Shown piece by piece: positions 3,614-47,054 of a stretch of 56,329 nucleotides of DNA. Positions within the stretch are counted from its first letter, which is position 1. Each line of letters starts with the position of its first letter. Location of the stretch: assembly GCA_027618475.1 (NCBI GenBank), contig JAQCEJ010000029.1, forward strand, positions 1 to 56,329, read 5' to 3'. Under the pieces are notes generated by a model. The model saw only the letters and a list, made by a program, of their open reading frames with translations, did no database searches and was not told the DNA's origin. The position numbers and the translations under genes were made by a program. The DNA is from Planctomycetota bacterium. Lineage in GTDB: Bacteria; Planctomycetota; Planctomycetia; Planctomycetales; Planctomycetaceae.

Positions 3614-3621
3614 GGGTGACT

Positions 3622-3711
3622 ACAAGCAGTTTCATAACCCTCTGGACGGCGGAGAATTCCGGACTATTTGGACGATTCTTCCGTCGCCAACCGGGTTATG
3701 AAACCAGTTCT
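3622..3711 (+). repeat. 90-bp palindromic dispersed repeat, copy A
   Basis: One of three copies of exactly 90 bases in this window. It begins ACAAGC, has GTTTCATAACC near the left end and its complement GGTTATGAAAC near the right end, and ends CCAGTTCT. The right 30 bases (GTCGCCAACCGGG... part) are identical in copies A, B and C, while the centre varies. It sits between the antiporter-like operon and the methyltransferase gene. Confidence 0.85.
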
Positions 3712-3745
3712 ATGGTTTCAATTGACGTCAAAATTGTGTTGTCTG

Positions 3746-5401
3746 TCACGGAGACACGATCCGCCTCAATACTCTGAGAAGTGCATCGGGCATCATGCCG
3801 ATCCCGATCGTGACGAATGCGGCCAGAATTGCCACCGACAACGCCGCTTGCCTCTTGTCCGAGGCAATCCGCCCGGCGGGAGCTTCAAAGAGTATCATTC
3901 GCAGTGGCTGCCAGAGTGTCTGCATGACTACGAATTGCGACACAATTGCTGCGAAACCCAAGATGAAAAAGCCACCATGCACCACCGGTAATCCTGAGCG
4001 CGGCTGAATCATCTGCACGCTCCATAAGCCACAGGCAATCTGCCACCGTCCCCAGAAACCGGCGGTCAACGGCAACCCACACAGGCTGAGCAATACAGCC
4101 GCGGCCAGACTTGCTGCGAGCGGCTGATGACGTAACAGGCCGCGCAAATCGTCCATGTAGGTCAACTCTCGTTCGTCGTTGAGAACGAATCGACATATGG
4201 CAGCAAATCCGATTATCGCTGTCAGATCGGCGATGATCAGGAACGGTACCACGCTTTCATTAAGCGGAAACATCAATTCGGTATTCGGAGCAAACTCCCC
4301 CATTTTTTTCTGGGCTGCGGCCAGAGCGATGCTCGTCATACACCAGCCGCTCTGCACGAGCATCAATCCCGCAAGAAATCGCCGCAAATGAATCTGCCTG
4401 CGGACGACATAACTTCCTAGCACAAATGACCAACCGGCGAGAATAATGAGTATCGTCGCCGAAGGGACGATGTGCCCCAGGGACGTTCCCACGACCACTG
4501 TTGTAACCGTGATCACAGCCGAGAGACTCTGCACGATCAACAACCACACCGACGACGAATAATCACCCGTTTCGGCGATGTCGAGTGTTTCGAGATGCAG
4601 CGGAATCGTCCAACCCGCTCCGACAATGACGAATAACAGACCGGCGATTCCCGGCAGCGAAGTCTGTTGCACTCCCGGATGAAAGTCCCGCAACTCCGAG
4701 AGCGACAGCGAAGGATTTCTCGTCCACAGAGCAAGAATCGCAAGTCCTGCGAACATGAACGCCATCGACCAGACTTCACGCCACATCAACATGACAACGG
4801 GGTCAACAGTTCGATCGGTCTCGTGAGAACGATTTCCCCAAAAATCGTTGCGAATTCGGTTCCAAAAGACATTCCATGCACCAGACGTGGTACCGAATTC
4901 CGAGGGATGTTCCGCAATCGACTCGGACGATTGTCGAAATCCGATGAGGATCGGCCAATGGCAAAGCCGTCCCGCTCCGAAAAGAACCCACAAGTTGGGT
5001 GCAGACGCGAGACTGCAAAGTCCTGCAAGCGAACAAATAACGAGAGGATTCCAGAGGCTCGAATTCTTCGATGAGATTACGGAAGGCGTTACGGATGTGG
5101 TGTCGAACGTCATCAGCACGATCAGGAATCCCGACGAGAGCACAATCGTCTGCCAGACCCGTCGCCATGTTTGCGCCGCTTCAACGGAGACATCGTCGCT
5201 TGCCGATGCCTGTTGTAGAGGAGACTTAATCAGCGACAAGTTTTCTGGCCAATGCACCGAAACACCAGCGAGCAAAATCAACATCAACGTGAATGTGCAT
5301 CCTGTTGATGTCGATGTGATCGCGAAACGACCGCATAACATCAATCCGGATCCGATCAGTAAAATCCAGATCGGCAACATATCGATGAGGTACGCGCTCA
5401 T
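3746..5401 (-). CDS. complex I NuoN-like antiporter subunit (divergent)
   Basis: A 551-residue protein with about 13-14 membrane segments. Its closest pattern is NuoN of NADH dehydrogenase: near residues 405-445 it has MDDLRGLLRHQPLAA...LSLCGLPLTAGFWGRW, matching the NuoN segment YxGLxxRxPxLA...LSLxGxPPTxGFxGK. Upstream, where NuoN has a Lys-bearing helix before PFHxWxPDxYxGAPT, this protein reads GWTIPLHLETLDIAETGDY, so the Lys and most of the motif are absent. It is the last gene of a three-gene operon and overlaps the preceding gene by ATGA. Its role as a proton pump is doubtful; membrane location is certain. Confidence 0.75.
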   Translation of the reverse strand: MSAYLIDMLPIWILLIGSGLMLCGRFAITSTSTGCTFTLMLILLAGVSVHWPENLSLIKSPLQQASASDDVSVEAAQTWRRVWQTIVLSSGFLIVLMTFDTTSVTPSVISSKNSSLWNPLVICSLAGLCSLASAPNLWVLFGAGRLCHWPILIGFRQSSESIAEHPSEFGTTSGAWNVFWNRIRNDFWGNRSHETDRTVDPVVMLMWREVWSMAFMFAGLAILALWTRNPSLSLSELRDFHPGVQQTSLPGIAGLLFVIVGAGWTIPLHLETLDIAETGDYSSSVWLLIVQSLSAVITVTTVVVGTSLGHIVPSATILIILAGWSFVLGSYVVRRQIHLRRFLAGLMLVQSGWCMTSIALAAAQKKMGEFAPNTELMFPLNESVVPFLIIADLTAIIGFAAICRFVLNDERELTYMDDLRGLLRHQPLAASLAAAVLLSLCGLPLTAGFWGRWQIACGLWSVQMIQPRSGLPVVHGGFFILGFAAIVSQFVVMQTLWQPLRMILFEAPAGRIASDKRQAALSVAILAAFVTIGIGMMPDALLRVLRRIVSP

Positions 5402-38454: not shown

Positions 38455-38519
38455 GGTTTGCTCCGTGGTTGTAGAGAGGGGGAGAGTGGGGGTGAAGACA
38501 AGAAGGTAAAAAGATTCTT

Positions 38520-38609
38520 AGAACTGGTTTCATAACCCGGTTGGCGACCGAATAGACGTTCTAATGATCCTGAAATACTCGAAGTCCAGAGGGTTATGAA
38601 ACAGCTTGT
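38520..38609 (-). repeat. 90-bp palindromic dispersed repeat, copy B
   Basis: A third-orientation copy of the 90-base repeat: read on the minus strand it begins ACAAGCTGTTTCATAACCC and ends GAAACCAGTTCT. The last 30 bases are identical to copies A and C. It lies between the capsid gene and the holin-like gene of the phage-derived cluster and is itself bracketed by inverted G/A and C/T tracts (38471-38485, 38612-38628). The whole 38455-38782 spacer has no gene. Confidence 0.85.
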
Positions 38610-38782
38610 AGTCTCTCTCTCCCCCTCTGGTTCATTGGCAATAAGGAGTTGATTCTAAAAAAGGGGTCGATCGCCTCCGTGCGATTCGTGATGAAGAATC
38701 ACGAGCAACATCCTGTCGCCGACCCTGGGATGGGGCTTTGGTTTATCGAATGTCGGGAGAGGCTTATGCCTCCTGCTCGCTG

Positions 38783-46964: not shown

Positions 46965-47054
46965 ACAAGCCGTTTCATAACCTTCTGGGCGCTGGGTGTT
47001 TCAGGGCCATTCGAACGTTGATTCTGTCGCCAACCGGGTTATGAAACCAGTTCT
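46965..47054 (+). repeat. 90-bp palindromic dispersed repeat, copy C
   Basis: Exactly 90 bases, beginning ACAAGCCGTTTCATAACC and ending GAAACCAGTTCT, with the last 30 bases identical to copy A. It lies in the spacer between the TIM-barrel gene and the UPF0210 gene. Confidence 0.85.

Follow-up and report, generated by a model that had tools for sequence, protein, structure and literature searches.

The window, by which we mean the whole stretch of 56,329 nucleotides that was analysed, is contig C24 of a planctomycete genome sequence of 5.93 Mb in 218 contigs (G000). Within it are three copies of a short palindromic element, with these features:

3621 to 3712, plus strand: MITE copy 1, an 88-bp element (3623 to 3710) with TA at 3621-3622 and at 3711-3712; from the sequence and the family profile
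3623 to 3640, plus strand: left terminal inverted repeat of copy 1, CAAGCAGTTTCATAACCC; from the sequence, column conservation and similar IS5-family ends
3693 to 3710, minus strand: right terminal inverted repeat of copy 1, GAACTGGTTTCATAACCC in the inward reading; from the sequence and column conservation
38519 to 38610, minus strand (opposite orientation): MITE copy 2, with TA on both sides; from the sequence
46965 to 47054, plus strand: MITE copy 3, flanked by GA/TC, not TA/TA; from the sequence

An earlier note on this DNA had placed the copies at 3622-3711, 38520-38609 (opposite orientation) and 46965-47054, each of 90 bases, with GTTTCATAACC inverted near both ends, a common right end of about 30 bases and differing centres. 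This description stands. GTTTCATAACC is inverted near both ends of every one of the three copies, the right end is an identical 29 bases, GTCGCCAACCGGGTTATGAAACCAGTTCT, in all three when read in one direction, and the centres do differ. The natural unit is refined here from 90 to 88 bp (3623-3710 in copy 1), lying between two TA dinucleotides. The window contains 9 matches to GTTTCATAAC at up to one mismatch, and the 6 that are exact all lie inside the three copies; the mean in the shuffled window is 2.49, and 9 or more matches were reached in 0 of 100 shuffles.

The element is not confined to the window. In the whole genome GTTTCATAACC has 236 exact occurrences and its reversed control 3. The 76-bp core GTTTCATAACC-N45-CGCCAACCGGGTTATGAAAC has 126 copies with up to 3 mismatches, where the reversed control has 0. 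In the 88-bp unit these 76 bp run from the outer edge of one GTTTCA box to that of the other. Loci L001 to L108 comprise 99 of the 100 places listed out of these 126 (C27:11514 was left out), together with end sites that have no perfect partner. A family profile built from 100 copies finds 138 non-overlapping matches in these loci, fragments included, all of them distinct. Columns 8-26 and 64-89 of the profile are conserved and columns 27-62 are more variable. Could the copies simply lie in recently duplicated segments, as the first description had considered? They are at different places, and among the 138 only 3 pairs have a common 25-mer in 40 bases of flank; two of these pairs are neighbouring matches in one locus and the other is between two contigs. 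There are further copies in relatives as well as in this genome.

The family has terminal inverted repeats, both in the three window copies and in the profile, many dispersed copies, and no coding capacity. No frame is open through all copies, the best being open end to end in 59 of 106 copies from this genome, and the copies have no 3-base periodicity. The unit is a MITE of 88 bp that is found mostly between genes. Just 5 of the 138 copies are inside called genes, with 33 more unplaceable for want of a neighbour; called genes make up 72% of the bases, a lower bound, as the home-made gene caller missed some window genes. In loci L001 to L123 no solitary GTTTCATAACC sites form the ends of a full IS. 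The sole site there outside a copy is L032:194, and the two at L112 are part of the copy at an interrupted Y1 transposase locus. One 20-mer of the right end had 0 matches in viral contigs.

TA is present on both sides of 76 of 117 full-length copies in this genome. Among the other 41, four have an identical dinucleotide on both sides, where 0.77 would be expected (P 0.0054). Among 44 copies taken from six further genomes, 24 have TA/TA and 20 lack it. The consensus of the left flank is T-N-A-C-T|A and that of the right flank T|A, with background reached within about 5-8 bases. The left flank is the more constrained, with C before the TA in 73% of cases, and after the TA on the other side G in 34% and A in 34%. 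The two flanks are not mirror images, and palindromic matches between the flanks beside TA are fewer than expected (23 observed, 38.7 expected).

At least two genes are interrupted by the element, and a third probably is. The three cases were chosen from 43 junction-spanning frames, most of the others looking like chance frames. In each, the flanks were joined with one TA kept, such that exactly 90 bp (the element and one TA) was left out. The first restored product is a Y1/IS200 transposase (IS200-type tnpA), which Pfam matches over residues 5-114 at E 1.3e-21, the junction following residue 10. The second is a four-helix-bundle protein, matched by TIGR02436 over 19-122 at E 1.4e-18 with the junction at 80. 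The third is a REP-type tyrosine transposase-like protein, whose NCBIfam match (87-190, junction 125) has E 5.8e-6, below the curated cut-off, and which has no match in Pfam. In the actual sequence the element introduces a stop in the IS200-type tnpA and in the REP-type transposase-like gene. Since 90 is a multiple of three, a model without duplication (88 or 92 bp) would put all three genes out of frame. Target-site duplication is seen in the TA/TA flanks, in the excess of identical non-TA dinucleotides and in these restored genes. At L059 (C206, copy 4519-4594) the element is read through in frame in the four-helix-bundle gene, which is of the 23S rRNA intervening-sequence type, adding 30 residues.

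Relatives were searched at several levels. The strict pattern is present in 9 of 170 genomes of the family, this one included, and in 6 of 58 genera, with a control of 0; the exact paired pattern had no match among 39 relatives. With up to 3 mismatches, 12 of the 297 genomes of the class have a match, the reversed control of this search having one match each in G003, G123, G125 and G243. Those clearly of MITE type are this genome, G018, G023, G024, G243, G290 and G302. The match in G098 is doubtful, and G033, G040, G093 and G260 seem to owe theirs to chance or to unrelated repeats. The ends in relatives are mostly GTTTCAAAACC, both sides being altered together, a joint change that would be explained by one protein recognising both ends. 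Centres are alike among G018, G023, G243 and G290 (identity 0.45-0.62, z 3.8-8.0). The likeness is weaker between G000 and G024 (0.40, z 3.2) and between G302 and G024 (0.37, z 2.1), and the centres of G000 compared with those of G243, G023, G290 or G302 are at the shuffled level. At L231 (G290, C361) a second repeat start, CACCAGACAGTTTCAAAA, directly follows a copy, perhaps as a tandem arrangement.

Length is kept across these genomes even where the centres are no longer alike. Among 128 near-complete copies in this genome 111 are exactly 90 bp and 8 are 89 bp. When 61-91 bp was allowed, the exact-ended copies of eight relatives had the 76-bp spacing in 96 of 107 cases, a count that requires exact ends and is biased to well-kept copies: G018 5/5, G023 23/23, G024 6/11, G243 28/30, G290 4/4 and G302 11/15 (77 of 88 in these six), G343 5/5 and G373 14/14, G024 being clearly less uniform than the others. 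None of the 17 length variants in this genome has a sister of the same length at fewer than 11 substitutions, compared with 58 of 111 standard-length copies that have a sister within 4; one standard-length copy has a gain and a loss that cancel. This contrast favours a length rule, though as a suggestion only, most variants also being old copies. Under such a rule the lineage would be length-locked: the machinery would gauge the distance from end to end and only 88-bp copies would give offspring, while the centre drifts freely across genera. We consider this unlikely. A universal length across phyla is ruled out by the other lengths of elements with these ends, which among the matches listed are 80-81, 89, 104, 115, 122-125, 134-135, 143-147 and 286 bp; a fixed length would therefore belong to this MITE lineage only. 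Were the rule real, the family would provide natural copies with fixed spacing and a free centre for the study of end pairing by a transposase, in DNA shorter than its bending length.

What moves these copies? G024 contains an autonomous element of the IS5 family, 878 bp long, which has TAGAGGCGGTTTCAAAAC ends and is flanked by TA at each of them; its two overlapping frames are each above the NCBIfam IS5_3 cut-off. Two MITE copies of the same genome (L218 and L219) start with TAGAGGTGGTTTCAAAACC. An 895-bp IS5-family element on an Anaerolineae contig has ends TAGAAGCTGTTTCATAACCCC and frames for DUF4096 and DDE_Tnp_1, and in the DDE part it shares 52% identity with the G024 element. The MITE ends match those of two IS5-family elements. 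PMC3281130 describes IS5/IS427 elements with lengths of 832-865 bp, 2-bp direct repeats in most of them, two overlapping ORFs and a frameshift motif. Of 22 DUF4096 loci in eight genomes, only that of G024 fits the MITE-end pattern at both ends with no more than 2 mismatches at each. At L246 in G018 a broken DUF4096 gene is located between two poorer end matches with 3 mismatches each, and one similar end only is found at L237, L250 and L251 (G018) and at L249 (G098). The three DUF4096 (IS5-type) loci of this genome, in its assembly of 218 contigs, have other ends, none matching the MITE, and G290, in which the MITE is present, has no DUF4096 match. A repeated IS may be missing from so divided an assembly; a partner IS in this genome would carry the ends TASAASYNGTTTCATAACC.

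The best explanation is a gene-less MITE family at TA sites whose movement is most likely the work of a common IS5-type transposase, and to this we give a probability of about 0.88. It draws on the copy number, the ends, the TA/TA flanks, the insertions in genes, the relatives with matching ends and the one autonomous IS5 element, its ends nearly identical, in a related genome. An IS5-type transposase would move, or would have moved, the copies in this genome, and the ends and length would be requirements of transposition. Mobilisation by an IS5/IS427 transposase is a candidate assignment made from the ends. The earlier suggestion of a protein-binding site would then hold for the ends, as those recognised by the transposase. 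The one-sided constraint of the flanks and the deficit of palindromic matches are not predicted by a simple symmetric TA target, and count against this explanation. So do the 41 of 117 copies here and the 20 of 44 in other genera that lack TA/TA, and the lack of matching ends at the three DUF4096 loci and the one DDE_3 locus of this genome.

That same one-sidedness would fit a Y1 target, read on one side, and so bears on a REP-like palindrome moved as a single-stranded hairpin by a Y1/HUH tyrosine transposase, either a RAYT or a relative flanked by terminal inverted repeats. The arms of the element can fold and there are 14 Y1 transposase genes in this genome. However, in a profile scan of the 14 loci, which took in flanks of 1.5 kb (shorter at L116 and L119), only one adjoined a copy, and its gene is interrupted by that copy; copies do not flank a Y1 gene there. 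The broken REP-type gene at C104 is outside these 14 loci. The unit of 88 bp with long terminal repeats also differs from REPs, which PMC3733652 gives as 20-40 bp, and it has no GTAG tag inside. An occasional GTAG at one end is composed of the TG of the unit, the flanking TA and the G of the target, as seen in the profile columns. The excess of identical dinucleotides where the flank is not TA, and the presence of similar ends on DDE-type IS5 elements, likewise argue against a Y1 transposase, which we regard as very improbable. The earlier view of a mobilised REP/MITE-like unit is kept for the MITE and is without support for the REP, no RAYT association having been seen. Equally improbable is a TA-duplicating MITE of an IS630/Tc1-mariner-type transposase instead of IS5. 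TA duplication is typical of IS630 too, and this genome has one DDE_3 (IS630-type) gene, but similar ends are absent from the DDE_3 locus and present on two IS5-family elements.

Could the copies instead be kept for a host function, as a structured RNA, bidirectional terminator or processing site? They are mostly intergenic, and folding of the whole element as RNA gives z -5.7 for copy 1 and -3.6 for copy 2, but -1.1 for copy 3. The earlier note had called the unit structured and proposed a covariation analysis of its middle. Taken alone, 26 representatives from this genome do show a slight tendency of the centre to fold in one direction (mean z -0.44), and the pairs 28-61 and 34-56, two of the strongest signals, are near a hairpin diagonal. 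Over 52 representatives of seven genomes, however, the centre folds no better than shuffles, the mean z being -0.06 (s.e. 0.19) in the forward reading and -0.01 (s.e. 0.13) in the reverse one, and covariation signals are weak at most, so a structured middle is not supported. Rfam had no match in the window at the gathering score. Nor is there a clear departure from chance in orientation and gene context: 29 copies are in the same direction as tandem genes and 40 opposite, and the tandem, divergent and convergent counts of 69, 23 and 8 (100 of 138 copies placed) track the gap bases of 62.7, 24.5 and 11.4 kb. An RNA function is scarcely credible, and less so than either of the other transposases.

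The family resembles MITEs of IS5-family (IS427-group) IS in its IS5-like ends, TA duplication, lack of a gene and many intergenic copies, and differs from them in that length is kept despite diverged centres and in that no partner IS was found in its own genome. ERIC, Correia/NEMIS, RUP and Nezha are short and non-coding with terminal repeats, several at TA; they are in other hosts, and their end sequences are not known to be related to those of the planctomycete MITE. All four are named in PMC3733652. Palindromic, intergenic, high-copy REP/BIME with RAYT, also covered there, are similar to the planctomycete element, but it is longer and TA-duplicating, without RAYT linkage seen. With the Rickettsia palindromic elements (RPE), described in the same paper, it shares a 90-bp net insertion, equal to 30 codons, and one in-frame read-through copy, but this is the one convincing case and most planctomycete copies are intergenic. 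No description of the family was found among open PMC papers, judged by title, and four end sequences sought as letters in those papers gave matches that are, by title, on other subjects. The MITE family thereby added for the Planctomycetota is numerous and long-lived, and its ends tie it to a transposase family.

In a one-end scan of named genomes the same end turns up across many phyla and, among the matches listed, often has a partner within 80-147 bp. End pairs about 2.2 kb apart (L136 and L147) were considered as a partner IS and rejected, the enclosed frames being unlike transposases by eye. Acidobacteriaceae JASHRF01 has separate short elements with TAGAAGYNGTTTCATAACCC ends, several of 123 bp (L137, L139, L158, L167 and L172, among others), and further short elements with the same ends are present in Desulfobacterales and Phycisphaerales. 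In Phycisphaerae JANQQK01/JANQSF01 at least 11 contigs (L135, L138, L142, L144, L145, L150, L153, L169, L170, L175 and L176) have the same end no more than about 100 bases from where they stop, the pattern to be expected if a high-copy IS breaks the assembly.
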